The position numbers were made by a program, and so were the translations under genes. From a virus, in the IMG/VR virus record IMGVR_UViG_3300021963_009173, positions 1 to 25,498 of that record: DNA of 25,498 nt, one strand, 5' to 3'. Below are positions 183-24,400 of the stretch, in pieces. The notes under the pieces are model-generated. The model did not search any database, was not told the origin of the DNA, and worked only from the letters and a program-made list of their open reading frames with translations. The number at the start of each line of letters is the position of its first letter. Position 1 is the stretch's first letter.

Positions 183-1669
183 TGGCACAAATAATAACCA
201 TTGGAGTTGTAGTTAATGTCAACGATCCAAGAGGATTTGGTAGAATAAGAGCTAGAGATATTACTGAAACAGATAGTACTAGAGCAAACGCCATTCCAGA
301 TTGGCAACAATGGTCTAAGGACGATCCGTTTGTTTATTCACCATTTTTACCTACACATATTAATATAATTCCTAGAGTAGAACAAGCGGTTAAAATAATC
401 AGATACGACACTAGAAAAGATTTACAAAATCAGGAATATGTCCCTGGGCCATATACAACACCACATGATTTTAAAGAACAAGATCAAGAATCACAAATAA
501 GTGAAACAACATTTGGTGCAAGATCAAAGAAAACACCAAGCATTAAATCATTTGCATCTAATAAAAAAGTTTATGATGATAATTTTATTAGAGCTGAATC
601 TGTTGGTTCTTTACCAAGGGTTTCAGATGTTGCGTTAAGTGGTAATTACGGTTCGGACGTTATACTAACAGAACATGGTGTTAATATTAGAGCTGGTAAA
701 TTTATTGATAAGTTTATTGATAATATTGAACTTAAACAAGATTTAAAATTTTATCCAACCTATTCTAGAAAAAATGCTAGATTATCTTTAAAAAAATTTC
801 CGGAAACATTTAAATTAATTTCAACAGAAATCACAGATTCAGTTGTTACTAGAACTGATATTAAACATTTATTAGAGTACGATTTAGATAGTATTAGTAA
901 TCCAACAGAAATTACTATAAATTTGTATAGAATCAATACTCCAGAAGGGGATAAATATAAAACAGATGTATTCAATATTGATTCAGAATTAGGTGTACAA
1001 ACATCCGAACTTATCTATACTGAATCAACAACACTAGAAGACACAGGTAATAAATTACAAGAAGCGTATATTCTTATTAGGGAGTTTATTAGTAGATTAG
1101 ACAGGGAAAGATTAAATATAATTGATGGTACGCTTCAAGATACATTAGCTCACCCCTTTTATTATAGACCAGTTCCGTCTTTAAGAGCACAACCCGGAGC
1201 AACTAGTTTTTTAGAAAATGTTGTGTTTTTAACAAGAGCAAGTGGTTATGGTTTGGTTTTCTCACAGGACAATCTTGAACCACCAATTAAAGAAGAAAAA
1301 AGAATTGTATCTGATCTTAAAAAGATAAGTGATGTTGATCAAACATTCTCTGCTTTGACTTCAGATTTTGTTTTACAATTATCAACACAAAATCCCGGAA
1401 TAGATGGTAAAAAAATAGACTTTAGTTCTTTAGACAGATATGAATATACACAAGAAGACTATCTCAAAAGAATTGTTCCAAATACCTTTTCTTCTGTTAG
1501 AGGGGAAAAATTAATAGAATTATTAGAACTTATGTCAAGAATGTTAATTGATCATACTCATGGTATATTAACCCCGCCATATTATTTTGCAGATAAAATC
1601 GCCAGAATTGAATCAATTATTGCTAATGCCAAAAGTGAAATGGTAAATACATCGATAAGAATCAATTAA
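182..1669 (+). CDS. gp5-like baseplate hub/spike protein with N-terminal OB-fold
   Basis: The protein has 495 aa. Residues about 1-75 resemble the OB-fold of T4 gp5 and related VgrG/gpV-type spike proteins: a first strand ITIGVVVNVNDPRGFGRIRA, then a PFLP segment and a final strand with VEQAVKIIRYD. In that family the OB domain sits in the central baseplate spike. Near the C-terminus (about 447-470) is a helix followed by DHTHG, a His-rich motif often seen at the end of such hub proteins. No lysozyme domain like that of T4 gp5 is visible, and no clear beta-helix repeat. The start ATG overlaps the previous stop. A short tandem repeat (KFIDKFIDN) lies near residue 175. The OB assignment is fairly secure; the exact structural position in the virion is inferred. 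Confidence 0.6.
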   Translation: MAQIITIGVVVNVNDPRGFGRIRARDITETDSTRANAIPDWQQWSKDDPFVYSPFLPTHINIIPRVEQAVKIIRYDTRKDLQNQEYVPGPYTTPHDFKEQDQESQISETTFGARSKKTPSIKSFASNKKVYDDNFIRAESVGSLPRVSDVALSGNYGSDVILTEHGVNIRAGKFIDKFIDNIELKQDLKFYPTYSRKNARLSLKKFPETFKLISTEITDSVVTRTDIKHLLEYDLDSISNPTEITINLYRINTPEGDKYKTDVFNIDSELGVQTSELIYTESTTLEDTGNKLQEAYILIREFISRLDRERLNIIDGTLQDTLAHPFYYRPVPSLRAQPGATSFLENVVFLTRASGYGLVFSQDNLEPPIKEEKRIVSDLKKISDVDQTFSALTSDFVLQLSTQNPGIDGKKIDFSSLDRYEYTQEDYLKRIVPNTFSSVRGEKLIELLELMSRMLIDHTHGILTPPYYFADKIARIESIIANAKSEMVNTSIRIN

Positions 1670-4868: not shown

Positions 4869-6584
4869 TTATCTTAATGTATCCAAGCTAAATGTAGTTA
4901 AACCTTTAACTGTGATAGTAGCGAAGTAACGGTTGTTTACCATTTTCTTTGCGTATCTTGTCATGATACCTTTGATTGGAGTCATGTTGAAAGGGTTATA
5001 CATTGTTGGAGTTAATTGTAAAGGTACATATGGAGCGTAGATATAACCTGCGTCTAATAATGATTTACCTTTGTGTCCAATTAACACTTTACCAGCTGGG
5101 AAGTAAGGATCACGATATACTTGATATCTACCAGCAAGTGTACCTACTTTTTCGATACCCATGTTGTATTGATCTTGCTCAGGACCAGCGTTTGATACGT
5201 GGAAATATTCTAAGTCATCGAATACTGCAGAAACTTCTGAAGAAACAACGATCCAGTTTGCACCACCACGTAATGTAGTTTTATGGATTTGAGCTGATAA
5301 TTGGTTGATTTTAGTTACCAATGTTTGGTTCCAGTCTTTTTGAGTGTAACCAACATAAGCAGATCCACCGTTACCATATTTCCACTCATTGTAATCCCAC
5401 TTAGCATTCCATGCAGCACCTTTACGTAAGTCACGTAAGATCTCACGGTCGATTTCTGCAGCAACTTGCTCAGATAATAAAGCTGTTAATTCAGCTTCAG
5501 CATCGATGTTGTGGAACGCAGAAACGTCTTGTGCTAATTCTGGAGACCAGCTAGCTCTTAACTTTCTTTCAGTAACAGAAACTGTTACAGAAGATAAGTC
5601 GAAAGATACTTCACCGATTTCATCTTCGAATTCTAAGTCTTCGTAAACTCTGTAAGTTACAGTGAATCCAGAAGCTGCGAATCCAGCAGGAGTAGTTAAA
5701 TTAGCGAAACCTGCAGTTGCAGAATAGTTTTGTACGTCTACACGTAAAAACATTACACCATCTTCATCACAGATATCTTCATATTTTCCACCAGGACCAG
5801 TTGCAGGGAATGTTGTTGTTCTCTTTTGACCATATTCAACAATACCTTTACCATATTTCTGAGTTACAATAGTGAAATCTCTTGCAACACCAGAATAAGA
5901 TACTGCTAAAGAAGCTAAGAACTCTTCAGTATCCATTTCGTTACCGTTAGGTCCGATTAATTTACCTTGACCGTTTTTAGTGAAACCAGAAACTTTCAAG
6001 ATAACTTCAGAGATAGATTGGCCTGAAGCGATTGACGCGTCAGAAACAACTCCACTATTAAATTCAACGAAAGCTACGCCAGTTTTAGTAACACCACTGA
6101 AAGCTCCTTTTGAATAATCGAAAAGACCTGAATCAGCAGCATCTGACTCTTCGTAGAAACGATCGTATAAATTTAAACCATCATAACCACCGTTAGTTGT
6201 GTCACCATTTGGAGAACCGAATGGAGTTAAGTGGTTACCATTGCTTCTATCTTGGATTTTAGGTACGAAGAAGAACAATTTACCGATAGGTAAGTTCATT
6301 GCTTGTACAGAAACGATGTCGTTTGCTAATAATTTAGAGAAAACACGACGGATGATTGGGAAAACTACAGTCTCGAAAGAACCAGAAGCATCAGCTACTG
6401 CTGCTTCGTTGATTAAATAAGACGCTTGGTTTTCATACAATTGCGCGATGTTATCTTTTTGGTGACCGTCAAGGTTTTCTAAGAAACCTAAGTCATCCCA
6501 TTTTTTGATGGTATCTTCTTTGATAACACGAAGGTGCTTAAGACCGATGTTACCAACCATACCTGATTCTAATAATGCTCCCAT
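4869..6584 (-). CDS. 23: Major capsid protein (T4 gp23 family)
   Basis: The protein has 571 aa and forms the head shell. It matches T4 gp23 in several places: an N-terminal pro-segment, then YLINEAAV (56-63), the expected gp21-type cleavage site after Glu60 (T4 cuts at FLTE/A); PIIRRVFSKLLANDIVSVQ and MNLPIGKLFFF (about 76-108); and a C-terminal core with SPELAQDVSAFHNIDAEAEL, EIDREILRDL and later FDDLEYF. The start ATG follows an A-rich leader with no Shine-Dalgarno sequence. It lies 27 nt after the scaffold gene and is probably co-transcribed with it, ending at the terminator 4821-4849. Its coding sequence appears slightly richer in G+C than its neighbours, as expected for a very highly expressed gene. 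Confidence 0.95.
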   Translation of the reverse strand: MGALLESGMVGNIGLKHLRVIKEDTIKKWDDLGFLENLDGHQKDNIAQLYENQASYLINEAAVADASGSFETVVFPIIRRVFSKLLANDIVSVQAMNLPIGKLFFFVPKIQDRSNGNHLTPFGSPNGDTTNGGYDGLNLYDRFYEESDAADSGLFDYSKGAFSGVTKTGVAFVEFNSGVVSDASIASGQSISEVILKVSGFTKNGQGKLIGPNGNEMDTEEFLASLAVSYSGVARDFTIVTQKYGKGIVEYGQKRTTTFPATGPGGKYEDICDEDGVMFLRVDVQNYSATAGFANLTTPAGFAASGFTVTYRVYEDLEFEDEIGEVSFDLSSVTVSVTERKLRASWSPELAQDVSAFHNIDAEAELTALLSEQVAAEIDREILRDLRKGAAWNAKWDYNEWKYGNGGSAYVGYTQKDWNQTLVTKINQLSAQIHKTTLRGGANWIVVSSEVSAVFDDLEYFHVSNAGPEQDQYNMGIEKVGTLAGRYQVYRDPYFPAGKVLIGHKGKSLLDAGYIYAPYVPLQLTPTMYNPFNMTPIKGIMTRYAKKMVNNRYFATITVKGLTTFSLDTLR

Positions 6585-6611
6585 TTTTAAATATTTGGTT
6601 TTTTTTATTTA

Positions 6612-7862
6612 TTATTTTATTTTTTTCATCAAATCTTTCATTCTTGCAAATTGAGGTGCTTCGTAAACTTTTGATTCAGAAAGTACTTCACTAGAAGAAC
6701 TTGAAGGAGTAGATGAGATTTTTTCCGCAACAGATTCGGTAACTGGTTTTTTAGTACCTAATTCTGCATTGATTGAGTTATAAAGATTTTTAGATTCTGT
6801 TATAGTAGAAATTGAATCAAATCTTTTTAAAATATTCAATTTTTCGCTTTTAGTTGTTGAATGTTCTGTAAACAGTCTAGTTGCATAAGCTAAATTTGCA
6901 TTGAAAACAGCAACTTCATTAAGTTTTTCTTTAAATAAAACTAATGCTTTTTTATATTCAGCATTTTGCTTCTTTAAGTTTTGAACTTCTTCGTTGATTG
7001 CTTTCTTTTGTGCTGCAGATTCATTTGTAGTTTTCTTAGCACCGGCTGCAAACATTTTTTTAGTAGGCAAGCCAGCTCTATCACCACCATGTGCATTCCA
7101 CTTAGTGTGAGCAGCTTCGTCAACTTCAACCTCTTCTTCAGGTAATTCAAGATCATCAGGAGTTCCAGAAACTTCGTAAACTTCTTCGTCTCCCATCTCA
7201 TCATCCATACCGTCTAATTCGATTTCGTAAATTGCTTCGTCAGACATTTCTTCTTCTTCTGCAACTTCTTCATCACCAGATAAATTGATTTCTTCTTCTC
7301 CTTCGTTCCAGTCTTCTGCAACGTCTTCAGAAGAAAGATCTTCTTCATCTAGTTTAATGATGTACTCATCTTCTTCATCTTTCAATGAGATGTTACCACC
7401 ATCTTTTTTAACGATAATACCATCTTCATCTGACATTGCTTTGAATACTTTCAAAACTTCTTCATCTGAAGCGTTGGTCATGTCTAACATGTCATCGTCC
7501 ATTGATGGTTCTTCAGCATCATCAAATGTTGGGAAATCGTCTTCAGCTTCTGTTTCAGAATCTTCATCTTCTGCTTCTTCGTCTTCCCCATCGATGTCTT
7601 TAGATGGTTCGTCATTTATTGAGGCCATGTCATCATTTTCTTCCGCATCATCATCAGATTCTGCGTCAGACATATCATCTGTCTCCTCTTCTTTAGAAGG
7701 TTGTTCTGCAACTTCCTCCTCTTCTTCCATGCTTTCTTTAAGCAAATCGTTTAGTTCTTGCTTCATTACTGAAGAAAGTATACCTTTTGCATTTTGCTTT
7801 ACTGCTTCTTCAAGTGTATTAACTTGAAGTAACGCTTGTTCTAAAATGGATTTTTCGCTCAT
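6612..7862 (-). CDS. 22: Prohead core scaffold protein (T4 gp22-like)
   Basis: The protein has 416 aa. Residues about 44-250 are extremely acidic with runs of Glu and Asp; the C-terminal part (about 275-416) is helical and predicted coiled coil, with LKRFDSISTITESKNLYNSI, a stretch like the C-terminal part of phage gp22-type scaffolds, and a basic end MKDLMKKIK. Candidate protease sites (LNEV, ITES, VTES) are scattered through it, as expected for a core that is digested to peptides. Position between the gp21-like protease and the gp23-like capsid gene supports the call. The long acidic insertion makes it larger than T4 gp22 (269 aa). The candidate late motif is at 7882-7889. Confidence 0.8.
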   Translation of the reverse strand: MSEKSILEQALLQVNTLEEAVKQNAKGILSSVMKQELNDLLKESMEEEEEVAEQPSKEEETDDMSDAESDDDAEENDDMASINDEPSKDIDGEDEEAEDEDSETEAEDDFPTFDDAEEPSMDDDMLDMTNASDEEVLKVFKAMSDEDGIIVKKDGGNISLKDEEDEYIIKLDEEDLSSEDVAEDWNEGEEEINLSGDEEVAEEEEMSDEAIYEIELDGMDDEMGDEEVYEVSGTPDDLELPEEEVEVDEAAHTKWNAHGGDRAGLPTKKMFAAGAKKTTNESAAQKKAINEEVQNLKKQNAEYKKALVLFKEKLNEVAVFNANLAYATRLFTEHSTTKSEKLNILKRFDSISTITESKNLYNSINAELGTKKPVTESVAEKISSTPSSSSSEVLSESKVYEAPQFARMKDLMKKIK

Positions 7863-7881
7863 TTATTTGTTTGATTTACTA

Positions 7882-7889
7882 TATAAATA
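7882..7889 (-). promoter_or_regulatory. Candidate late promoter motif before scaffold
   Basis: On the minus strand the sequence reads ATATTTATATAG; the TATTTATA octamer ends 19 nt before the ATG at 7862. The region 7863-7953 between the protease and scaffold genes has no convincing hairpin terminator. Confidence 0.5.
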
Positions 7890-7953
7890 TGTGGATTATT
7901 AAAAAAAACCTATTTTCTGATATTATAAAAAGGAAATAATTACTCTTTATCCC

Positions 7954-8637
7954 TTATCTTGAAAGAAAAGAATCAAATTTATTCATCAATGTTTTCATTT
8001 TATCTTCAACAACGGGTTTTTCTTCTATATTTTCATTGTATTTGTCTTTATCAGCAATATCCTGAAATACATACGCACCAGGAGTAGATGGAGATGAAAC
8101 TAAATCAAAGCATACTAATTCAAAATCATCTTGAACAATATTTTGACCTTTGATTTGTTTTAATGATCCAACACCTCTAGATGAAATACCTAGTGTGACA
8201 CCATTCATAATTAACATTGCTGCTTGATCACCTTTACAACTAACAACACCCATTTTTCTCCATCCTGGAGAAGTTAAGATTTTGATTTTACCCATTAAGG
8301 TTTTACCATCCCACCAAGTTTCGGTAATTGTATGTGATACTCTATCTAGATCGATAAGAGAAGATGAAGGGTGGTTTAATTCATTTAACGCAGACCCCTT
8401 CTTTATAATTTGTTGATATTTTTCGTTTTCCCTTTTTAATAGAACTTCAGGGTATATTCTACCGTTTTTGTTTGGTGTATCAAACTTTTGTAAAACGGCA
8501 TACAGAATAAGGTCTTCAGAGAAGTCCATATTCTTCATTTCTGTGATTACATCTTTATTGTCATTAGGAGAAACATGACCAGCGTCATATTCAATTAAAA
8601 TCCCCCTACCTATTTCATTTGGTCCCAGTACTTTCAT
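7954..8637 (-). CDS. 21: Prohead maturation protease (T4 gp21 family)
   Basis: The protein has 227 aa and is the serine protease that digests the core and trims the capsid protein. Family motifs: NKNGRIYP (57-63), the catalytic His in ELNHP (His89), the catalytic Ser in LGISSRG (Ser152 or Ser153), and the conserved DFELVCFDLVSSPS segment (171-184). Length fits T4 gp21 (212 aa). The acidic/basic C-terminal tail (about 198-227) may be an autoprocessing or core-binding segment. Its start codon lies inside a 9-bp inverted repeat (8622-8669), see findings. It precedes the scaffold gene, as in T4. Confidence 0.92.
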   Translation of the reverse strand: MKVLGPNEIGRGILIEYDAGHVSPNDNKDVITEMKNMDFSEDLILYAVLQKFDTPNKNGRIYPEVLLKRENEKYQQIIKKGSALNELNHPSSSLIDLDRVSHTITETWWDGKTLMGKIKILTSPGWRKMGVVSCKGDQAAMLIMNGVTLGISSRGVGSLKQIKGQNIVQDDFELVCFDLVSSPSTPGAYVFQDIADKDKYNENIEEKPVVEDKMKTLMNKFDSFLSR

Positions 8638-8669
8638 TTATAACAGTTATATTGTATAAATACTGGGAC
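8622..8669 (-). repeat. Inverted repeat enclosing the protease start codon
   Basis: GTCCCAGTA (8622-8630) and TACTGGGAC (8661-8669) are perfect 9-bp inverted arms separated by 30 nt. In an mRNA that reads through from upstream they would pair and enclose the protease ATG (8637-8635). The left arm encodes residues 3-5 of the protease. The candidate late motif overlaps the upstream arm, so transcripts begun there would lack that arm. Confidence 0.6.
8655..8662 (-). promoter_or_regulatory. Candidate late promoter motif before protease
   Basis: The minus strand reads GTATTTATACAAT; the octamer ends 17 nt before the ATG at 8637. The following TATAACTGTTATA (loop region) is a small palindrome. Confidence 0.55.
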
Positions 8670-8676
8670 TTATGAA

Positions 8677-9105
8677 TCAAATCTTAGTTTTATTGAAATT
8701 ATATAACGTTTTGTCTGTCAAACACGTATCAATAGCACTATGTAAAAATTTTTTTAATAAATTTTTTATTTCGGACGATCTAACATCAAAAAAATTGTCA
8801 ACAAATAAAGTGATCTCTAAATTCATAAAAGACCTTTTATTCATTTTAATTCCCTTTGTCCTAATATCTAAGTCAACTATACTTTCTTTTTTAAAATAGT
8901 CTCCTAAGTTATACGTTCGTATATGTTCTTTTATTAGCTTTCTGGTTTTAAGAATTGTTCTATCAAAATCCAATTCCTCGTTTTGAGGTTCAACCCAAGC
9001 GTTCATCTTTATGTATATGGTTTTTAAATTTTTAAAATCTACGGTACCATATCCAACCTTTACTTCTTTATAATCCCCTAAAGGGATATATTTTCCACTT
9101 TTCAT
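8677..9105 (-). CDS. Unknown phage protein in the head gene cluster
   Basis: The protein has 142 aa with no recognised family. It has a beta-rich N-terminal half (KTIYIKMNAWVEPQNEELDF), a central segment with KTRKLIKEHIRTYNLGDYF, and a strand/helix C-terminus (FMNLEITLFVDNFFDVRS then a helix). No signal peptide or membrane segment. It sits between the portal/246-aa unit and the protease gene; small core genes (67, 68) lie there in T4, but this protein is not acidic like gp67 and I see no similarity. It has a good host-type promoter (9147-9178), unlike the late genes around it, so it may be expressed earlier. Confidence 0.6.
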   Translation of the reverse strand: MKSGKYIPLGDYKEVKVGYGTVDFKNLKTIYIKMNAWVEPQNEELDFDRTILKTRKLIKEHIRTYNLGDYFKKESIVDLDIRTKGIKMNKRSFMNLEITLFVDNFFDVRSSEIKNLLKKFLHSAIDTCLTDKTLYNFNKTKI

Positions 9106-9146
9106 TAATTTTTTTCATTCATTATTGTATTTTATGGTGATATTAC

Positions 9147-9178
9147 TAAAAATAAATAAAAAATGTTAATATTCCAAA
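9147..9178 (-). promoter_or_regulatory. Bacteroidota-type promoter for the 142-aa gene
   Basis: On the minus strand: TTTG (9178-9175), exactly 20 nt, then TATTTTTA (9154-9147), one base from TAnnTTTG. It shares the 14-bp word TTTTTTGGAATATT with the SAP promoter at the same spacing. A start near 9140 would give a leader of about 35 nt. Confidence 0.5.
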
Positions 9179-9190
9179 AAATATTATATA

Positions 9191-9198
9191 TATTTATA
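9191..9198 (+). promoter_or_regulatory. Candidate late promoter motif before bS21
   Basis: ATATATTTATACATT precedes the ATG at 9203; the octamer ends 4 nt before the start. Fourteen bases (ATATATTTATACAT) are identical to the motif before the candidate small RNA at 21905. Confidence 0.5.
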
Positions 9199-9202
9199 CA
9201 TT

Positions 9203-9394
9203 ATGATCATTATAAACATTTCAAAGGAAAAAAACATCGAATCTGCGTTAAGAACGTATAAAGCAAAAGTTCAAAAAACTAAGCAAATTCAAAAATTGAG
9301 AGAAAGACAGGAATTTGTGAAACCTTCTGTGATCAGAAGAAAAGAGGTATTGAAAGCGATATATCTTGAGCAGAAAAAAAATGGTCTAGATTAA
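9203..9394 (+). CDS. rpsU: Ribosomal protein bS21, phage-encoded
   Basis: The protein has 63 aa, the normal bS21 length in Bacteroidota. It begins with a beta strand MIIINISK, then NIESALRTYKAKVQKT and LRERQEFVKPSVIRRKEV, which follow the bS21 pattern (ALRRFKR...VRRREFYEKPSVxRK in cellular proteins); the KPSVIRRKE helix is the clearest match. bS21 binds the 30S platform next to the 3' end of 16S rRNA; in Bacteroidota it takes part in hiding the anti-Shine-Dalgarno sequence. It is the only + strand gene between 4460 and 19845, with its own candidate promoter, and ends in a terminator shared with the converging 246-aa gene. bS21 genes are known in some other phages. Confidence 0.88.
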   Translation: MIIINISKEKNIESALRTYKAKVQKTKQIQKLRERQEFVKPSVIRRKEVLKAIYLEQKKNGLD

Positions 9395-9407
9395 TCCAGA
9401 CCATTTT
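9378..9407. terminator. Bidirectional terminator overlapping convergent stop codons
   Basis: AAAATGGTCT (9378-9387) and AGACCATTTT (9398-9407) form a perfect 10-bp stem with a 10-nt loop. A T-run follows on the minus strand (the A-run at 9374-9380 on +) and TTTT on the plus strand. It lies inside the last codons of bS21 and of the 246-aa gene, whose stops overlap. Confidence 0.65.
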
Positions 9408-10131
9408 GTAACTCTTTTAAACGATAGTAATTATACTTCGTTGGACTCATACTGTCCATTTCTTTCTTAACATCCGTTAATTTATCTTTAAATGAATTAT
9501 CGGTAGATTCGGATAATAAGGTATTAACTTTATTATATAAACTTTCTTTAATTTCACTTACTTTACTTTTAACATCTTCATCAGAAAGAGATATGATATT
9601 TTTTAAAGTTTCTTTTTGTTCATCATTTAATGATGACTCATACAATACATTGAAATTATTTGCCAATACGGCGTGTAATAAATTTTCATTAACAGTGTAA
9701 GTTTCTGCTGATTTTTCTTGTACCTGTTTTTTGGTTGTCAAATGCTCAACTAATTTTTTCTTAGCAATTACCTTTTTTTCAATATTAGTTAAATTATCTT
9801 CTTCTAATAGTTGGTCAATTGAATCATATAACTCGTTTTCATCTATTTGTGTGTCATAAACCGACATATTAATAACCTCGCAAAAACTATTAATCTTTGA
9901 TGCTTTTTGTTTTAATATTGAACTTAGTTCTTCAACATATAATTTTGCAGTTTCTTTATCTTCAAAATATTTGTTTTCAATTTCTTCATAAAACAAATAC
10001 ATTTCTTTAAAGTCTTTGTTTTTCTTTATTACTTTAAAAAGGTTCTTACTGTTTTGCTTTAATGTATTTTCAGCATAAGCCTCAGTAAGCTTTTTAAGTA
10101 TTTTTGATTTTATTTTACCAAAGTTGTTCAT
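9391..10131 (-). CDS. Helical protein downstream of portal, possible internal head protein
   Basis: The protein has 246 aa, is Lys/Glu/Leu/Asn-rich and almost wholly helical, with coiled-coil-like stretches. The N-terminus KSKILKKLTEAYAE carries LTE/A (15-18), the same P3-P1' pattern as the T4 capsid cleavage site, preceded by a short basic amphipathic helix, as in capsid-targeting sequences of T4 internal proteins. It follows the portal gene by 2 nt and so is in one operon with it. No enzyme motif is visible. A prohead core or portal-associated protein is an inference from position and the N-terminal signature. Confidence 0.6.
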   Translation of the reverse strand: MNNFGKIKSKILKKLTEAYAENTLKQNSKNLFKVIKKNKDFKEMYLFYEEIENKYFEDKETAKLYVEELSSILKQKASKINSFCEVINMSVYDTQIDENELYDSIDQLLEEDNLTNIEKKVIAKKKLVEHLTTKKQVQEKSAETYTVNENLLHAVLANNFNVLYESSLNDEQKETLKNIISLSDEDVKSKVSEIKESLYNKVNTLLSESTDNSFKDKLTDVKKEMDSMSPTKYNYYRLKELQNGLD

Positions 10132-10133
10132 TT

Positions 10134-11939
10134 TTAATCGTTTAAGATATCTTTTAATTTATTTTCTATTTCATAAATATTCTTCTGTGCCTTTTCAAGA
10201 TTGAATAAGTCACCAATTTCATCACTTTCACCTAACATTCCCAATAATTTACTCTTTTTGCTTTCACTTAATGGTTCTGCTGCGTCTGCTGGTTCTGCTG
10301 ATGGTGTTGATGCTGGTCCACCCATGTCCATTCCTCCAGCTTCACCCTCCGCTCCCTGTGCCATCATTTTTTCTCTTTCTTCTTCCGGTATACCATATTT
10401 AGAATCAACTTCATCAAATACCCCAGAACGCTTAATAACTAATTGTGAGTTTGTTAACTCAAATCCCATTGCTCTCTCAAGACGTTGTTGTTGTAAATCA
10501 AGCAATACTTCATTATCACTGAAACCAAGAATATTCTTTTTAGCCCAAGTATGTGATACTGGCAATATACCAACCTGTGATTGATCTGATGTTGCGTCTT
10601 TATATAAAGTTATTTTTTCTTTCCATTGCTCAATACGTAATAAATCAGATTGTGCCGATGGGTTTGTTAAACCTAATGTAAAGTTGTTTAATTCATCATC
10701 TAAACCTAACATGTGTAGGTGTATCAGAGCGATTTTATTTAACTCTTGAATTAAAGATTTTTGAATTCTATTAATTGTTCTAGCAAAACGAATATCCATT
10801 AATGCAAGATTTTTACCATCACCAACAACTTCTTCGAAACCTAAAAATGCTTTAGGAATACGAAGTGCCGCTAATAATTTCTTTTGAATATATTCAATAT
10901 CCGCAATCTCACCTAAATTTTGCGCACCAGCTAATGTTTCAATTGGACTTGGTGCCGCCGGATCACGAACAGGTATAAAATAATCTTGGTCTACTGCCAT
11001 TTGATTATATCTCATATCTACTTGTCCGTTTCTAGAATCAACAATTTGATCTCTTTTAAATTTATTTGCAACACGTTGTACATATGGTTCAATATCTTTA
11101 TCATCCATGTTTCCAACAAATATTTTAAATACACGTCTTTCTGGTGCTCTTGATGTTCTATAAATCAACATAGCATCTTCTGCTAAAAGTAATTGTTTCC
11201 AAATTCTTCTGATTTTATCTAACATTGATGTACCATATGGTAATTTTCTATCGTCACCCAATAATCTAAAGTGTGCAATTTCCCATGCTTGGAATTCCAT
11301 ATCTCTATTCTTCCAAGTAAAACGTAATTCTTTTGTGTGTGTTTTAATGTCCGATGTTGTTTTATTCCCCGGAACACCTTGAGCACCTTCTAATCTATCA
11401 ATTTCAATGTTAGGTAATTGATGACAACCAATTACACCTTTCTCCGGATCAATTTTTAAATACACAAAGTTATCACCATACTTACATAGGTTTCTAGCCC
11501 ACATTTGTAAATTAGTATTCACATCTAATTGATTTTCAAATAGATCTATTAAAACACTTTTAACTCTGTTTGATTCAGAATAAACATTTAGTATATGACC
11601 CTTCTCGGACATTGTTGTTGATTCTTCTGCGTATATGTCTAAAGCAGCAGAAACCTCTGGAGTAAACTCCATAGATTCATAATCATAATATGCTGCTAAT
11701 CTGTTTGGTTCATAATAAACCGATTGATTATATAGTGAGTTGTCTAACTTAGCCCACTTATCAAATAAAAACTGACTTTGTTGCGCTTGTAACTTGGCCT
11801 TCTCAAATTCAACCGGATCATCTGTCTTAAGTAATTCTTCTCTAGAAAAATTAAATGACGGAGGTGTTTGTTGTGATCTACCTTGCCACCCAAATATTTG
11901 GGTTAGTTTCTGAAATATTGTTAAATCTTGATTTGCCAT
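10134..11939 (-). CDS. 20: Portal protein (T4 gp20 family)
   Basis: The protein has 601 aa and forms the dodecameric ring through which DNA enters and leaves the head. T4 gp20-type segments: LYNQSVYYEPNRLAAYYDYE (70-88), a region with MWARNLCKYGDNFVYLKID (146-164), RAPERRVFKIFVGNM (264-278), and a long stem/wing region with ETLAGAQNLGEIADIEYIQK and LLAALRIPKAFLGFE. The C-terminal 70 residues are Gly/Met/Ala/Pro-rich and disordered, followed by a helix, with LSES as a possible processing site. It begins 48 nt after the terminase stop. The candidate late motif lies 4 nt before the start codon. Confidence 0.94.
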   Translation of the reverse strand: MANQDLTIFQKLTQIFGWQGRSQQTPPSFNFSREELLKTDDPVEFEKAKLQAQQSQFLFDKWAKLDNSLYNQSVYYEPNRLAAYYDYESMEFTPEVSAALDIYAEESTTMSEKGHILNVYSESNRVKSVLIDLFENQLDVNTNLQMWARNLCKYGDNFVYLKIDPEKGVIGCHQLPNIEIDRLEGAQGVPGNKTTSDIKTHTKELRFTWKNRDMEFQAWEIAHFRLLGDDRKLPYGTSMLDKIRRIWKQLLLAEDAMLIYRTSRAPERRVFKIFVGNMDDKDIEPYVQRVANKFKRDQIVDSRNGQVDMRYNQMAVDQDYFIPVRDPAAPSPIETLAGAQNLGEIADIEYIQKKLLAALRIPKAFLGFEEVVGDGKNLALMDIRFARTINRIQKSLIQELNKIALIHLHMLGLDDELNNFTLGLTNPSAQSDLLRIEQWKEKITLYKDATSDQSQVGILPVSHTWAKKNILGFSDNEVLLDLQQQRLERAMGFELTNSQLVIKRSGVFDEVDSKYGIPEEEREKMMAQGAEGEAGGMDMGGPASTPSAEPADAAEPLSESKKSKLLGMLGESDEIGDLFNLEKAQKNIYEIENKLKDILND

Positions 11940-11943
11940 ATTG

Positions 11944-11951
11944 TATAAATA
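11944..11951 (-). promoter_or_regulatory. Candidate late promoter motif before portal
   Basis: The minus strand reads GAAAGTATTTATACAATATG; the octamer ends 4 nt before the ATG. The same GTATTTATACAAT word occurs before the protease gene. Confidence 0.55.
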
Positions 11952-11987
11952 CTTTCGTAATTAATCTAATTAAAAAATATGGATAAA

Positions 11988-13766
11988 TCAACCTTTTTTT
12001 GTTCTACCACCAAATAGCCAAGAATGTTGAGCATACAATTCTTTGTTGGCATTTGTTGATGACCTAGCATAAGGTGAACCATCCATTTGCATTGAACCTA
12101 TTTGATCGAAAGAAGTACCATATGAATAAAATTCTTTCCCAGCATCATATGTTCTTTCAGCCATAACCCAGGATTCTAACATGGCTTTATTGGCTGTTTC
12201 GTTTCTTTTTAATTGAGTAAATGATATATCACCAGCATATAATGCAATAGCCATACTCATAATTGCGTCATCATGAGCACCTTTCATATGATTTGGTTTA
12301 CCATTTATGTAAACAAATGTGTTTAATTCGTTTAATAATCTGTTAGATCTTACAGTAAACCCGTGTCTTAATTCTTCTTCAAATGCAGATACAATTTGTG
12401 TTCGTTTGTTATTGAAGTTAATCCCTGGAATTTTTTCTAAAATCTTTGAATTATATTCCCACATGTTTTGTGTGTTAATACCATCAAAAAATAAATTCTT
12501 ATAACCCATTTCTTGAAGTTTTCTAGATGTACCTACACCCATACCACCGGTAATATCAATAACAATAAAACAATTATATAATACCCCCCACTTGTATGCA
12601 ATAGCTGCTAAATCATCAGGTGGGATTTTTCCAATGTATTCCATTACCTGACATCTTTCGTCAAAATTAATAATATTAATTGATGAAAAATCTTCACTAT
12701 CACCTCTACTAACATCGACCCCCATAATATATCTACAGCCTTCTTTTGGTTCATCCCATAACCACAAATTCCCCTGCATGTATTTTTCTTTTGGTGTTCT
12801 GATCATTGTTTTAGCGATACGCTCCATTGTATCACCAGGAATTACACTATCTCCAGAACCCAAAAAGTCACACTCCAATTCCTGTGCGATTTTTCTTTTA
12901 TCATATTTAAATTTCTTAGACATTGATTCAAACCAACTAGAATATGGTGTGTAACCTTCTTCCATTAATTTTTTATAATCATTTATGTCATATTCTCTTA
13001 AAACAACTTCGTCATCATTATATTGTTCTCTGTTTAACATGTAGTGAACAATATCGGGAACCTTTATCCAAACTAAATCTTTGGTATAACGAGGATCTTT
13101 AAACCATCTTAAATCAGTAATATGGAAATCATTAATATTACGTAATGCTTGGTCATATACACCATAGTAAATTGGGTCATAACCATTTGGTGTTGAAATC
13201 AATATAATTTTACCACCCGTTGACAAGGATGCCATAGATGCTGCCCAGAAGTCTTCTCCCGCTTCTATATAAGCTGCTTCGTCAAATATAAGTACTGTTG
13301 GTGTATAACCACGTAACGCATCCGCAGATGTTGCTACCGCTTTAACCTCACAACCATTATTTAGTCTAAATCTACTTTCAGAGTTTTTGTCCGCAGAAAA
13401 ACCAACATTTAACCAATCTGGCCACTGTTCCAAAAAATGTCTAACCTTATTAGCCATCTCAATAGCGGTATCTCGCTTATTGGCAATAATCAAAACTCTT
13501 TCTGGGTTTTCTGGTTTAGCTAATTGTAATTTTTTAGAAAGCCATGCCGCAGTTACGGTTGTTACCCCGGCTTGACGATATTTTTTTGTGATGTTTTCAT
13601 TATAATCTTCGTAATCTTGAATCAATTGTAATTGATCAGGAAATAGATCCATTGGAACATATTTCTTTTGTGTGTTGTCATATGTTTGAAGATATGTTCG
13701 TAACGCATAAGGAGTATCTTTCATAATCCTTGCGTATTCCATAAGTTGTTCTGCTCTTGAATTCAT
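11988..13766 (-). CDS. 17: Terminase large subunit (T4 gp17 family)
   Basis: The protein has 592 aa, close to T4 gp17 (610). ATPase part: adenine-binding/Q region FPDQLQLIQDY (42-52), Walker A region KKYRQAGVTT (61-70), Walker B VLIFDEAA (158-165, Asp162/Glu163) and motif C LISTPNG (190-196). Nuclease part: RNase H-like metal site with GVDVSRGDSEDF (Asp352), VIDITGG (Asp405) and AHDDAIMSMA (Asp500/501). The Walker A loop has Val where T4 has Lys in GKTT; related terminases use an upstream Lys or Arg, here KKYR. It packages the genome through the portal. It is preceded by a terminator and its own late-type motif. Confidence 0.95.
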   Translation of the reverse strand: MNSRAEQLMEYARIMKDTPYALRTYLQTYDNTQKKYVPMDLFPDQLQLIQDYEDYNENITKKYRQAGVTTVTAAWLSKKLQLAKPENPERVLIIANKRDTAIEMANKVRHFLEQWPDWLNVGFSADKNSESRFRLNNGCEVKAVATSADALRGYTPTVLIFDEAAYIEAGEDFWAASMASLSTGGKIILISTPNGYDPIYYGVYDQALRNINDFHITDLRWFKDPRYTKDLVWIKVPDIVHYMLNREQYNDDEVVLREYDINDYKKLMEEGYTPYSSWFESMSKKFKYDKRKIAQELECDFLGSGDSVIPGDTMERIAKTMIRTPKEKYMQGNLWLWDEPKEGCRYIMGVDVSRGDSEDFSSINIINFDERCQVMEYIGKIPPDDLAAIAYKWGVLYNCFIVIDITGGMGVGTSRKLQEMGYKNLFFDGINTQNMWEYNSKILEKIPGINFNNKRTQIVSAFEEELRHGFTVRSNRLLNELNTFVYINGKPNHMKGAHDDAIMSMAIALYAGDISFTQLKRNETANKAMLESWVMAERTYDAGKEFYSYGTSFDQIGSMQMDGSPYARSSTNANKELYAQHSWLFGGRTKKG

Positions 13767-18459: not shown

Positions 18460-19710
18460 TTAAAGTAGCTTTCTAAGTGATGTTTTAACCAACAATTTAA
18501 TTGCTTCATTGATCTCTTCTTCATCACTAACACTATCAACCCCATCAATAATAAATGCTGAACATTTAGTAATCACTTGTAAATTTTTCATAATTTTTTC
18601 ATTATTAGCTTTCCACAATGCCAAATATGTTGGATGTTGAGTAACTGGTAGATCATAATGTTTCATAACAGCATATGAAACAGATTCAGCTTGAAGTTCT
18701 CTCATTTCAGCGGTTTGTACGCTTGGGTCATCAATATAGAATGGTGATTTGGTTTTCCAGTGAAGTAACTCGTGAGCTAATTCATGGACTAATACACTCG
18801 CTTCTGCCACGCCAGATATATCAGAAGATAAATTAATATGTTCTCCAGCACTATACCCCTTTTCACCTTTTTTTGAGTCAGATTTTGTGATTTTTATTTT
18901 TAATGTCTCAGCAAATTTCTTTAACCTAACAATAAGTTTGTCAGCAACTTCACTAGGGGTGTTGTCAGCTTCCCACTTTGGTGTTTCCGGTACCTCTCCT
19001 TTTTCGTTTTTTGGGTATGTGTCAGAAATATCATATACTTTAGATAAAACAAAACTAGTTCTTGGTTTTTCAGCTGCTGATTTCATTAATGAGTCTAAAT
19101 CAGTAAAATCAACCTTAGTAGTCTCAGGTTTTTCACCTGAACCCGTATTTGTTATCGGTCTCCAAATCCATATTACTGTAGCACCTGTTTTAACTCCTCT
19201 ATTTTTTGCATTCCAAGTAGTATAACTAGCAACTTTTGTTGCGTCCTTTTTTTGTAGGTAAATCAACCAGGTGTTTTGTAAACTATAGTTATGGAATTTA
19301 CTATAAAAAGTTAAGTAATTTCTAATAGCGGCGTCCATAGCTGTTTGATCCGTAGCGTTAGCTAAATCACGAATATAATCATCTAACTTCTTTAAAATCA
19401 AACTTTTAGCAGATGGGTCAGCATCAGTATCCTCAATAAAATCCTCAATCTTTTCTAAATCTTCAACAATTTTTCTAATTTTATTGTGTGATTTAATTAA
19501 TTGATTAATCACATCAAATTGTGAATAATCACCAACCCAATGACCTAATTCTTTTATCCAATCAAATCCTAGTTTTCTAAATTCCTTATACAAACCATAA
19601 GTTTCATTGGACGCTTTTCTTTTGTCTTCGATGTCTGAAAAAATATAAAGTTTCTTTTCAGTTTCGTTCTTTTTAAGATATAAATCTTCAAATATTTGGG
19701 ATCTTCTCAT
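18460..19710 (-). CDS. ArdC-like anti-restriction protein with zincin domain
   Basis: The protein has 416 aa. Residues about 130-190 fit the N-terminal ssDNA-binding domain of ArdC/LtrC-type proteins: FYSKFHNYSLQNTWLIYLQ, ATKVASYTTWNAKNRGVKTG, ATVIWIWRP. The C-terminal half holds a metallopeptidase of the ImmA/IrrE-ArdC type: VLVHELAHELLHW with HExxH at 309-313, and RELQAESVSYAV with the likely third zinc ligand at Glu338 or Glu342. ArdC proteins protect incoming DNA from host restriction. Unlike plasmid ArdC it has an extra helical N-terminal region (1-125). The C-terminus EEINEAIKLLVKTSLRKLL carries INE/A. It is divergent from the ClpC-like gene. Confidence 0.75.
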   Translation of the reverse strand: MRRSQIFEDLYLKKNETEKKLYIFSDIEDKRKASNETYGLYKEFRKLGFDWIKELGHWVGDYSQFDVINQLIKSHNKIRKIVEDLEKIEDFIEDTDADPSAKSLILKKLDDYIRDLANATDQTAMDAAIRNYLTFYSKFHNYSLQNTWLIYLQKKDATKVASYTTWNAKNRGVKTGATVIWIWRPITNTGSGEKPETTKVDFTDLDSLMKSAAEKPRTSFVLSKVYDISDTYPKNEKGEVPETPKWEADNTPSEVADKLIVRLKKFAETLKIKITKSDSKKGEKGYSAGEHINLSSDISGVAEASVLVHELAHELLHWKTKSPFYIDDPSVQTAEMRELQAESVSYAVMKHYDLPVTQHPTYLALWKANNEKIMKNLQVITKCSAFIIDGVDSVSDEEEINEAIKLLVKTSLRKLL

Positions 19711-19735: not shown

Positions 19736-19789
19736 TATTTTTAAAATAAAAAACCACGGTTTAAATTTTTTTGGACAATTTGTCATTTA

Positions 19790-19821
19790 TTTGGTTTTTA
19801 GATCGAAATATGTTATGTTTG
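19790..19821 (+). promoter_or_regulatory. Bacteroidota-type promoter for the ClpC-like gene
   Basis: TTTG (19790-19793), 20 nt, TATGTTTG (19814-19821): a full match to the -7 box TAnnTTTG. It places the transcript start near 19828, which rules out the ATG at 19815 and supports the ATG at 19845. A palindrome GACAATTTGTC (19774-19784) lies just upstream of the -33 box and could be an operator. Confidence 0.65.
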
Positions 19822-19844: not shown

Positions 19845-21854
19845 ATGGCAGTAGACTACGGATACGAAGACACCCCTAAAACCAACCCAAGAAACAAAAA
19901 ACCATCATCCAATACACCGATACTGGATAATTTTTCCAGGGATTTAGTAAGATTGGCTCAAGAAGGTAAAATTGATCCGGTTGTTGGTAGAGACAAAGAG
20001 GTTAAAAGAATTGCACAAATTCTTTCCAGAAAGAAAAAAAATAATGCGGTTATTGTTGGTGATGCTGGTGTAGGTAAATCAGCATTAGTTGAAAAATTAG
20101 CATTAATGATTGCTAACGGAGATTGCCCATCAAACCTACTCGATAAAAGATTGGTTTCTTTAGATTTAACTTCATTAGTAGCCGGAACAAAATATCGTGG
20201 TCAGTTTGAAGAAAGAATTAAAGCCATATTACATGAATTACTTGAAAATCCAGAAGTAATTGTTTTCATCGATGAATTACACACAATGGTTGGTGCCGGA
20301 AACGCTAGTGGTTCTATGGATGCCGCTAATATTTTAAAGCCAGCCTTAGCTCGTGGTGAAATTCAATGCATTGGAGCAACAACATTTGATGAATTCAAAA
20401 AACATATTGAAAAAGATGGTGCATTGGTTAGAAGATTTCAAAAAATCATATTAAAAGAGCCAACTGAAACAGAAACAATAGAAATATTAACCAATCTGTT
20501 ACCATCATATGAAGTTTATCATAGAGTATCATATCAAGAAGAAGTTGTTGAAACAATTGTTAAACTGTGTGGTAGATATATGACAGATAAACAATTTCCA
20601 GACAAGGCTATAGATGTTTTAGATGAACTTGGATCAGAAAAACGAGTTGTTGTTAAAATTCCCGAGGTAATTGAAAAATTAAAGAAGGAAGCTGATGAAA
20701 CTAAAGAAAAGAAATTACAAGTTGTTAAAAGTCAACAATACGAGCAAGCCGCTGCATTGCGTGACCAAGAACAAAAAATTTTAGCAAAATTAGAAAAGGA
20801 AAAAGCTAATTGGCTTAGTGCACAAAAAAATAATTTAATTCCAATTAGTGTTGATGATGTATATGAAATGATTTCATATATTGTTGGTGTTCCTATTTCA
20901 AAAATGGATGTTAGTGAGGTTGATAATTTATTAAATTTAGAAAATAAATTAAATGAAAAAGTAATTGGTCAACAAGAAGCTATTTCAATAATCTCAAAAG
21001 CTATTAGGAGAAATAGGGTTGGTATTAAAGACACCGCAAAACCAATTGGGTCTTTTATCTTCTTAGGCTCTACTGGTGTCGGTAAAACATTTTTAGCTAA
21101 AACATTAGCGGAACTTATTTTTGGTTCTAAAGAAAATGTTATTCGTGTTGATATGAGTGAATTTATGGAAAAACACAGTGTTTCAAGATTAATCGGTTCT
21201 CCTCCAGGATATGTTGGTTATGATGAAGGTGGTCAATTAACTGAAAAAGTAAAAAACAATCCTTTTTCTGTAATCTTGTTTGATGAAATTGAAAAAGCAC
21301 ATAAAGACGTTTTCAATTTATTGTTACAAATTTTAGATGAAGGTCACCTAACAGACTCTTTTGGTAGAAAAGTTAATTTCACAAACACATTAATTATTTT
21401 AACATCTAATGTTGGTGCTAAAAAAGTAAGTGAGTTTGGTGCTGGCGTTGGGTTTTCAACAAATGGTAGCGAAGAACAGCAATTTGAGGTTAAAAAGACA
21501 ATGATTCAAAAATCTTTGAAGCAACAATTTAATCCAGAGTTCTTAAACAGAATTGATGATGTTATTTTATTTAATAGTCTTAAAGAAGATTCATTAAAAA
21601 CCATCATTAAATTAGAAATCAATCATCTAATTAATAGATTAGCTGAAAAGAAATATGTTCTAAAATTTGATGATAGTGTTTTAAATGAAATCCTAAACAG
21701 AAACAAAGAGGAACAATATGGAGCAAGACCAATTAAAAGAATAATCCAATCTTTATGTGAAGATTTTTTAAGTGATGAAATTTTAAAAGGTAATATTAAA
21801 GTAAATGTGCCAGTAAAAGTTTCATACAAGGATAAATTGATATTAAAATCTTAA
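19845..21854 (+). CDS. ClpC-like AAA+ unfoldase (Clp/HSP100), without N-domain
   Basis: The protein has 669 aa from ATG 19845 (A-rich leader, correct distance from the promoter). Domain 1: GDAGVGKS (72-79), pore loop KYRGQFE (116-122), Walker [10 protein letters not shown] (138-146), arginine finger ALVRRFQ. Then a short UVR-like coiled coil (about 293-319), as in ClpC rather than the long ClpB middle domain. Domain 2: GSTGVGKT (408-415), pore loop GYVG (455-458), VILFDEIE (476-483), NRID (568-571) and [12 protein letters not shown] tripeptide (535-537) stands where ClpC binds ClpP. The adaptor-binding N-terminal repeat domain is absent. It probably unfolds host or phage proteins for host ClpP, or helps in head assembly. 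Confidence 0.93.
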
Positions 21855-22270: not shown

Positions 22271-22281
22271 AAAAAAAATTG

Positions 22282-22289
22282 TATCTTAG
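22282..22289 (+). promoter_or_regulatory. Possible -7 box before the RNA-repair genes
   Basis: TATCTTAG in TTGTATCTTAGCCCCC looks like the TATCTTTG form of the Bacteroidota -7 box, 25 nt before the kinase ATG. No good -33 box is found, since the terminator occupies that place. Confidence 0.35.
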
Positions 22290-22314
22290 CCCCCACAAAC
22301 TTAAAATTGAACAA

Positions 22315-22737
22315 ATGGAAAAAGAATGGACTGGAGATTTAATTCTTTTAAGAGGTTTACCTGGATCTGGTAAATCTACGCTAGGGGATGTTGTACTCTA
22401 TACAAACAAATTAGGAAATCAAGATGTACTATCTGCGGATAATTTTTTTATTAATGAGAGCGGTGAATATATTTTTGACGCCACTAAATTAAAAGAAGCG
22501 CATAACTCTTGTCAACAAAAATGTGCTGAAAGAATGAAGTACCAATTTGTAAAGATAGTTGTAGCAAATACATTTACAGAAGAGTGGGAAATGAAACCAT
22601 ATTTTGATATGGCAGAAAGATATAACTATAGAATTCATACAGTTATTGTCGAGAACAGACATGGTAATCAAAACATCCATAACGTTCCGGAAGATAAACT
22701 CAAAAGCATGAAGGCCCGTTTTGATATTAAACTATAA
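22315..22737 (+). CDS. P-loop polynucleotide 5'-kinase-like protein
   Basis: The protein has 140 aa from ATG 22315; a TTG start at 22279 is less likely. It is an AAA_33-type kinase: P-loop RGLPGSGKST (13-22), a substrate-side Asp42 in SADNFF, KEAHNSCQQKC (60-70), VVANTFTEEWEMKPYFDMA (82-100) and a lid segment VENRHGNQNIHNVPE with Arg115. This matches the 5'-OH polynucleotide kinase part of T4 Pnkp and N4BP2-like kinases. The 3'-phosphatase domain of T4 Pnkp is absent. With the adjacent RNA ligase it suggests a healing-and-sealing pathway for broken RNA. It could instead act on another small substrate, but the neighbour makes RNA likely. Confidence 0.78.
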   Translation: MEKEWTGDLILLRGLPGSGKSTLGDVVLYTNKLGNQDVLSADNFFINESGEYIFDATKLKEAHNSCQQKCAERMKYQFVKIVVANTFTEEWEMKPYFDMAERYNYRIHTVIVENRHGNQNIHNVPEDKLKSMKARFDIKL

Positions 22738-22798: not shown

Positions 22799-23989
22799 AT
22801 GTCAAGCTTTTTACAACAATTAGAAACCTATTACGAAAATGGGTTGCTACACAAACAAAATCATCCAACGCTTGATTTAACGATTTGGAATTATTCCCCT
22901 AAAGTTCAATATGAAAGATTGTGGGATGATATTACCATACAATGTCGTGGTTTAGTTACTAACTCTAAAGGTAGTATAGTTGCAAGACCGTTTAAAAAGT
23001 TTTTTAACTACGAAGAACACAAACCAGAAGATATCCCAAATGAAGAATATATTGTATATGAAAAGATGGACGGTTCTTTAGGTATTCTTTTTTATTATGA
23101 GTATGATTTAAGTGACGAAAGAAGATACAATATTTGGTTTAATAACAATTATGAAACGGGAATGGAAAGATTCTTTGATCCAAACAATCTACCCGATTTT
23201 GATAATTCATATTACGAACCAACACCCAAAAGAAAAGGTGAGTGGATTTTAGCAACAAGGGGGTCGTTTATTTCTACTCAAGCAATGATGGGTAAACATA
23301 TACTTGATACTAAGTATAATGTTGATTCATTAAGAAAAACCAGAACTTATTTATTTGAAATTATCTATCCTGAAAATCGTATTGTTGTGGATTATGGTAA
23401 TGATGAAAAACTAGTTTTGCTTGGTGTTATTGATACCGAGAGCGGAGAAGAAATACCCAACAGCGCATTACCGTTTATGGTTGAAGATGGTTGGGAGATT
23501 GTAACCACATACAAAACCTGGGGGGAAACATACGATCTACTAAAGGAAGAAATTTCAAAAGATAAAGAAGGTTATGTAATTCGTTTTAAAAATGGTTTTC
23601 GTATGAAAATCAAAGGAGAAGAATATAAACGATTACATAAAATTTTAACAGGTATCTCATCAAGGGATATTTGGGAATATGCTAAAGATGGCAAGCCGCT
23701 TAATGAATTATTAGATAAAGTACCTGACGAATTTTATAACTGGGTAACCGAGACTTTACTAAAATTTATGGTGCAGTATTCAACAATCGAAGACTTATGT
23801 AAATTTGATTTTGAGGAATATAAAACAAAAACCGAAAGTAAAAAAGAATTTGCTTTAACGGTTAAACATCATTTATATTCTCCAATTCTTTTTGCCATGT
23901 ATGATGGTAAATCATATAATCATATTATTTGGAAATTAATATATCCAGAACACACAAAACCGTTTAAAAATTATTCTTGCGCGGAATAA
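22799..23989 (+). CDS. rnlA: RNA ligase (T4 Rnl1-like)
   Basis: The protein has 396 aa (T4 Rnl1 is 374). Motifs of the ATP-dependent nucleotidyltransferase fold in order: CRGLVTNSKGSIVARPFKKF (49-68) leading to FFNYEEH, motif I YEKMDGSLG (Lys89, the AMP acceptor), motif IIIa FEIIYPENRIVVDYG (186-200), motif IV EGYVIRF (257-263) and motif V MKIKGEEY (269-276). The C-terminal helical domain (about 280-396) is like the tRNA-specificity domain of Rnl1. It would join 3'-OH and 5'-phosphate RNA ends, for example tRNA cleaved by a host anticodon nuclease. It starts 61 nt after the kinase stop on the same strand. Confidence 0.9.
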   Translation: MSSFLQQLETYYENGLLHKQNHPTLDLTIWNYSPKVQYERLWDDITIQCRGLVTNSKGSIVARPFKKFFNYEEHKPEDIPNEEYIVYEKMDGSLGILFYYEYDLSDERRYNIWFNNNYETGMERFFDPNNLPDFDNSYYEPTPKRKGEWILATRGSFISTQAMMGKHILDTKYNVDSLRKTRTYLFEIIYPENRIVVDYGNDEKLVLLGVIDTESGEEIPNSALPFMVEDGWEIVTTYKTWGETYDLLKEEISKDKEGYVIRFKNGFRMKIKGEEYKRLHKILTGISSRDIWEYAKDGKPLNELLDKVPDEFYNWVTETLLKFMVQYSTIEDLCKFDFEEYKTKTESKKEFALTVKHHLYSPILFAMYDGKSYNHIIWKLIYPEHTKPFKNYSCAE

Positions 23990-24006
23990 ATTTTTTTATA
24001 TATTTG
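23977..24006 (+). promoter_or_regulatory. Bacteroidota-type promoter for the 122-aa gene
   Basis: TTG (23977-23979), exactly 19 nt, TATATTTG (23999-24006): a full -7 match at consensus spacing. The -33 box lies in the last codons of the RNA ligase gene. A start near 24012 gives a leader of about 20 nt. Confidence 0.7.
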
Positions 24007-24031
24007 TAGAACAAACCAAACTACCCAACCT

Positions 24032-24400
24032 ATGGCAAAATCAACAAGAAAACCAAGAGAGATTTTTAAAACAATCAAGATAAAAGGAGCATATGATGGT
24101 TTTAATGAATTCTATAAAAAAAACCAAGAAGTAATTTTAGATGGTATACTCGATGTTTTTAATGAGTTCAAAATTACAGACAAGAAAAAATTAACATTTT
24201 TAATTAAAGTTAATTTAAATATAGAAGATGGTGAGACTATGTGGGATAGTGAATTTACATTCACAAGAAACGATTATCCAGTTCTAATAAAAGAAGTGAT
24301 TCCCTTTTATGAAGAAAAAGAAAATTATGAAAAGTGTTTAGATATAATGAATCTTTATAATGACTTTACAAAAGGTAAAAAAATACCTATTTTAGAATAA
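24032..24400 (+). CDS. Unknown small protein
   Basis: The protein has 122 aa and I do not recognise a family. It begins with a basic segment AKSTRKPREIFKTIKIKG, then an alternating helix/strand part with GILDVFNEFKITDKKKLTFL and a beta strand IKVNLNIEDGETMWDSEFTF, and ends in a helical, acidic part KENYEKCLDIMNLYNDFTKG. No signal peptide, membrane segment or metal motif. It has its own host-type promoter and is followed by a strong terminator, so it is likely an early or middle single-gene unit. Confidence 0.65.
   Translation: MAKSTRKPREIFKTIKIKGAYDGFNEFYKKNQEVILDGILDVFNEFKITDKKKLTFLIKVNLNIEDGETMWDSEFTFTRNDYPVLIKEVIPFYEEKENYEKCLDIMNLYNDFTKGKKIPILE

Follow-up and report, generated by a model that had tools for sequence, protein, structure and literature searches.

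The DNA analysed here (the window) is the whole stretch from position 1 to 25,498, about 25 kb, of IMG/VR record IMGVR_UViG_3300021963_009173. It is a fragment of a T4-like phage, and next to its block of structural and packaging genes it carries the open reading frame considered here (Table 1). Judged by its sequence, this reading frame is a double-AAA+ unfoldase of the ClpC type (Hsp100 class I) with all catalytic motifs kept.

Table 1. Features of the window, with residue numbers referring to the 669-aa phage ClpC.
Feature	Position	Strand	Basis or remark
T4-like block: gp23 capsid, Peptidase_S77 prohead protease, gp20 portal, gp17 terminase	4869..13766	-	Pfam, sequence matches
Divergent neighbour, weakly ArdC-N-like, HELAHE zinc-protease motif	18460..19710	-	In the slot of the relatives' Hsp20
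GACAATTTGTC inverted repeat, operator-like	19774..19784	.	Kept upstream of the family's ClpC
Bacteroidota-type promoter, TTG (19791) - 20 nt - TATGTTTG (19814-19821)	19791..19821	+	Motif count in relatives' upstreams
ClpC-type AAA+ unfoldase without Clp_N domain	19845..21854	+	669 aa, frame free of stops
N-terminal tail, residues 1-20	19845..19904	+	Low-confidence in AlphaFold2 model; residues 1-9 kept, M[SAP]V[DE]F..[ED][DE]
AAA+ module D1	19923..20648	+	Pfam and alignment of viral relatives
D1 motifs: Walker A 72-80, pore loop 113-122, Walker B 138-147, sensor 1 175-180, Arg finger 193-199			
Short ClpC-type middle domain (M-domain), UVR motif, Tyr299	20664..20828	+	Pfam, alignments
AAA+ module D2	21039..21557	+	Pfam and alignment of viral relatives
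D2 motifs: Walker A 408-416, pore loop 451-463, Walker B 476-486, sensor 1 518-524, Arg finger region 562-571			
Predicted ClpP-docking loop, residues 533-540 (AGVGFSTN)	21441..21464	+	Alignments, AlphaFold2 model
VGF, residues 535-537	21447-21455	+	Alignments
D2-small domain (ClpB_D2-small)	21579..21818	+	Pfam

Pfam models for AAA, AAA_lid_9, AAA_2 and ClpB_D2-small match the protein, together with a UVR-type M-domain motif (PF02151, residues 280-312) that scores just under its cut-off (20.7 bits vs 21.5). The closest solved relatives by sequence are the ClpCs of S. aureus and B. subtilis, and the top solved-structure matches of an AlphaFold2 model (mean pLDDT 82.5) are ClpC chains out of ClpC-ClpP structures. 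These domains, alignments and structure matches bear out the first-pass annotation, which had called the protein a ClpC-like unfoldase. It had also described both ATPase sites, the pore loops and the arginine fingers as intact, and in both AAA+ modules the Walker A and B motifs, sensors, pore loops and arginine fingers hardly vary among 63 distinct complete viral relatives. Purifying selection acts on the gene (dN/dS roughly 0.03-0.16, with dS near saturation), and a quick tree with well-supported deep nodes nests the protein within the ClpCs of Bacteroidota and phages. The M-domain between D1 and D2, modelled as helices 274-295 and 299-328, is of the short ClpC type with a UVR motif and one coiled coil, unlike the long one of ClpB. 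ClpB was ruled out by the ClpP loop, the short M-domain and a TIGR03346 score of 784 against a cut-off of 1232, and ClpA by the presence of an M-domain and a TIGR02639 score of 693 against 993; the equivalog models for ClpB, ClpA and others all score well under cut-off.

The N-terminal Clp repeat domain is missing. Pfam detects no Clp_N in the 669 residues, and in alignments to S. aureus and B. subtilis ClpC the phage protein matches from its residue 18-19 onward to ClpC residue 154-155, directly past the N-domain. In each of the 89 viral relatives (73-100% identity) the protein opens with M[SAP]V[DE], and a stop closes the reading frame 1-39 codons before it. The 80 cellular homologues extend by 116 aa or more ahead of the matching region, and the best of the ClpC-like matches present in 60 of 61 Bacteroidota genomes lie in open frames of 832-914 aa. 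A separate Clp_N gene was not found in 43 records of related contigs. The Bacteroidota-type promoter lies 24-54 nt 5' of the ATG, so that a transcript from it could not include an N-domain encoded further upstream. Its -7 element, TAnnTTTG, occurs in 49 of 56 distinct ClpC upstreams, mostly at -29 to -32, vs 8.9 expected from shuffles, and the inverted repeat GACA-N3-TG[AT]C, often in two or three copies, in 50 of 58 (0.16 expected from shuffles). A TTG start at 19791, which would give 687 aa, was rejected because relatives show no conservation of the frame ahead of the ATG and this TTG serves as the promoter's -33 element. By these alignments the loss is real and family-wide, and the first-pass annotation was correct in regarding the domain as absent, whether from the protein, from the frame ahead of it or from related contigs. 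Where it described about 25 disordered residues as the replacement, residues 1-20 are modelled with pLDDT under 50, but the first nine are conserved. Hardly any other gene in the window has this promoter type, and the late genes lack it; this rarity suggests early, host-driven transcription of clpC. Besides clpC, only the gene at 24032 has a TTG-TAnnTTTG promoter immediately in front of it in the window (23977-24031).

The VGF tripeptide aligns with the docking-loop region of B. subtilis and S. aureus ClpC, between TSNVGA and FxPEFxNRID. In the phage protein TSNVGA, VGF and a ten-residue segment follow in that order, and Bacteroidota ClpC has DFGxGVGF at the equivalent place, the segment being TSNVGARQLKDFGQGVGF. 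Among the 63 distinct complete viral relatives, position 535 is V in 59, I in 2 and M in 2, and none departs from G536 or F537, while positions 538, 540 and 544 close by vary; ClpB controls are without a VGF-type tripeptide. In the AlphaFold2 model residues 533-540 form a low-confidence loop flanked by helices 525-531 and 543-561, and low confidence is what a flexible docking loop should show. VGF is thus predicted to be a genuine ClpP-docking loop of the ClpC type, and alignment to ClpC of B. subtilis, S. aureus and Bacteroidota puts it exactly where the first-pass annotation had placed it.

Which ClpP the loop would serve is a separate matter. The 25-kb window itself is without a clpP gene, and we infer one in the window's own phage from its relatives. 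Among 22 ClpC contigs, the three longest have a match to PF00574 (ClpP), and a scan with the phage ClpP gave 80 viral loci. ClpC is also found on 9 of 23 long ClpP contigs, which makes 10 contigs with both genes when a 118-kb contig is counted, about 8 of them independent since two pairs have identical ClpC score and spacing. The two genes are divergent and 104-122 kb apart in all 10. Every one of the nine ClpP contigs that extend ~122 kb in the right direction has ClpC, and those without it all stop shorter. By sequence the phage family is an ordinary ClpP, its triad of Ser128, His153 and Asp202 invariant in 51 of 51 distinct sequences. At the position aligned with Tyr62 of E. coli ClpP (E. 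coli numbering), a residue of the docking pocket, all 51 phage ClpPs have His, vs Tyr in 33 of 33 Bacteroidota ClpPs. After the catalytic His, HQS replaces HQP in the phage proteins (L164:1492-2166 (-) and 50 other distinct sequences). Neither ClpX nor ClpS was found in the nine records with both genes, where the ClpX model matched only the ClpC frame itself, and the N-less ClpC is the only Clp unfoldase partner found for the phage ClpPs in these records.

With a ClpP of their own in the long relatives and no second Clp unfoldase found, the obvious partner of ClpC is the phage ClpP, and the proposal of the first-pass annotation that the phage redirects host ClpP does not stand in that form. 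We consider it probable that this Bacteroidota-derived, N-less ClpC is the predicted ATPase ring of a phage-owned, adaptor-free ClpCP protease. This is the parsimonious reading; use of host ClpP is possible and not needed. The ClpC hexamer would thread substrates, driven by ATP, through the pores of D1 and D2, and the VGF loop would dock the ring on the ClpP of the phage itself, whose gene in relatives lies ~104-122 kb off. Lacking Clp_N, the ring would not need an N-domain adaptor, and substrates would probably enter by their tails at the pore. That the phage ClpC docks mainly on host ClpP and redirects it away from host adaptors appears unlikely: its VGF loop does resemble the one in Bacteroidota ClpC, which presumably pairs with host ClpP, and ClpP is present in every Bacteroidota genome searched, but where their contigs are long enough the phages prove to have a ClpP gene of their own. 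Against a phage-owned ClpCP it can be said that ClpP and ClpC lie far apart and share no operon, and that the pocket of the phage ClpP has His for Tyr62, docking itself being predicted.

The M-domain raises a further objection. Tyr299 aligns with F436 of S. aureus ClpC, the repressive M-domain aromatic, and this residue is Tyr in 87 of 87 readable relatives. S. aureus ClpC deleted for its N-domain binds ClpP without MecA but forms head-to-head ring dimers and inactive rods via F436, and proteolysis is free when the deletion is combined with F436A (PMC12583610; PMC5699869). The rods indicate that loss of the N-domain alone does not give free proteolysis, and because the phages keep the Tyr, constitutive activity of their ClpC should not be assumed; that the N-domain-deleted S. 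aureus protein ends with ClpP in inactive rods (PMC12583610) counts against a working phage ClpCP. The first-pass idea of escape from host adaptor control is accordingly plausible for adaptors that bind the N-domain, but the M-domain repression surface, comprising the aromatic and an LRD motif, is retained. Either the Tyr makes weaker contacts, or the conserved N-terminal peptide or a phage factor governs the ring, or ring dimers belong to the biology. A rival reading is a chaperone or disaggregase that works independently of ClpP, with head-to-head ring dimers through Tyr299 as in ClpL or N-deleted S. aureus ClpC, with Hsp20 as its companion and with the loop as a leftover. The Tyr in all 87 readable relatives, the published dimers of N-domain-deleted ClpC (PMC12583610) and an adjoining Hsp20 gene in 56 of 80 loci would all suit such a protein, yet we rate it as quite unlikely, as a leftover would not be expected to keep G536 and F537 unchanged in 63 distinct proteins, and the same phages encode ClpP.

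The location of clpC is stable across 80 family loci. The Hsp20 gene, where present, is divergent from it at a distance of 110-190 bp (e.g., L018:7463-7825 (-) and L007:7472-7840 (-)). Upstream lie KTSC and nucleotidyltransferase-like genes in 78 of the 80 and terminase in 76, and downstream a lipoprotein-like gene, an AAA_33 kinase and an RnlA-like ligase in 65-72. The last two adjoin each other in the window, an AAA_33 kinase-like gene at 22279-22737 and a T4 RnlA-like RNA ligase gene at 22799-23989, and could form an RNA repair pair. The frequent divergent Hsp20 beside ClpC suggests that the proposed phage-owned ClpCP would serve the quality control of phage (or damaged host) proteins. A virion-assembly factor that remodels capsid or tail apart from bulk proteolysis is improbable, although clpC adjoins the terminase/portal/capsid block, since it lies on the opposite strand behind a host-type promoter not found at the window's late genes and the phage already has a T4-type prohead protease.

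An enlarged tree with extra phage relatives from a second scan places the window clade inside Bacteroidota ClpC, in a phage group that includes Clp_N-bearing ClpCs. On this tree the state of the N-domain changes seven times, and placing all N-less proteins in one clade is rejected (p-AU 0.0006); since the tree was built quickly, the exact number of losses is uncertain. On an earlier small tree independent loss was without support (p-AU 0.35-0.59). Many nominal phage matches were fecal, Listeria or similar bacterial-looking contigs and were excluded as phage evidence. N-domain loss is, on the enlarged tree, recurrent among phage ClpCs. It shows no link to the presence of ClpP: among other phage contigs, 12 of 20 with an N-less ClpC and 7 of 10 with an N-bearing one carry ClpP. 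In N-bearing sisters the N-D1 linker has a conserved Met (15 of 15 in the closest sister clade) near the point where N-less proteins start, and in 17 of 19 genes the bases upstream of it are more phage-start-like than those of any ATPase-core Met; the linker is Lys-rich, which favours A-rich DNA, and the start-like context is hence a lead only. The linkers of N-bearing phage ClpCs (L363-L410, e.g., L401 and L392) could hold an internal start that yields an N-less form. We tentatively propose, as a conjecture that may well prove wrong, that repeated shedding of the N-domain led to adaptor-free ClpCP, that the sisters make the short form internally and that the window lineage is a short-form-only end point with a co-evolved, altered-pocket ClpP.

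Compared with known systems, the phage protein shares D1, the short M-domain, D2, the VGF/IGF loop and pore loops with bacterial ClpC (B. subtilis, S. aureus, Bacteroidota; ~50-54% identity), and differs in having no Clp_N and in beginning within the N-D1 linker. Like the N-domain-deleted S. aureus laboratory construct (PMC5699869; PMC12583610) it combines a missing N-domain with an M-domain aromatic and a ClpP loop, but it is natural and conserved, there is a ClpP in its lineage and the aromatic is Tyr instead of Phe. SPO1 Gp53 also represents phage intervention in ClpCP, as an adaptor-like protein on host ClpC, whereas the window ClpC is an unfoldase (PMC6873191). In ClpC the N-domain is both resting-state latch and adaptor dock, and its deletion in S. 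aureus opens ClpP docking yet stalls in rods. Phages appear to have made this deletion naturally several times, keeping the ClpP loop and, in the window's lineage, adding a ClpP. Their ClpCs offer a direct test of how ClpC chooses substrates and is controlled without its N-domain, and bear on what phages gain from a private protease. The long relatives, from a T4-like Bacteroidota phage lineage and with their own ClpP, probably have a stripped-down degradation machine of their own, not merely a borrowed host one.

A 'ClpA' (VOG02072, 24 occurrences) is a core gene of moraphages, aquatic T4-like jumbo phages of Bacteroidota (Perez-Hernandez et al., 2025, PMC12619734), and is probably the same gene family; the likeness of the lineages is by description. 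The window lineage is compatible with the moraphages in its promoter type, its T4-like genes and the size of related contigs (200-311 kb), and may well belong to them. The main text of that paper lists the annotation and does not discuss N-domain loss, the docking loop or ClpP. Jumbo phages with Clp ATPases and ClpP are already known (PMC6102473; PMC11242549; PMC7824862). Atu_ph07 and AP-J-162 encode several Clp-family proteins, in Atu_ph07 Clp ATPases and a ClpP subunit (PMC6102473; PMC11242549), but they are of other hosts and lineages and have ClpX, with ClpS too in Atu_ph07; their relative, Sinorhizobium phage Phosso, has a Clp ATPase with a long region ahead of D1, unlike the window ClpC. 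No paper came up in phrase searches of the literature for 'phage ClpP' or 'phage ClpC'. As far as searched, what is new is that the whole family has lost the N-domain and conserves the ClpP loop, that phage ClpP occurs in a fixed layout, that the loss recurs and that an internal start is possible. An N-less ClpC together with at least one ClpP gene is also seen in three huge uncultured phages of 484-642 kb (L254, L255 and L256; LR745206, LR756502 and LR756508).
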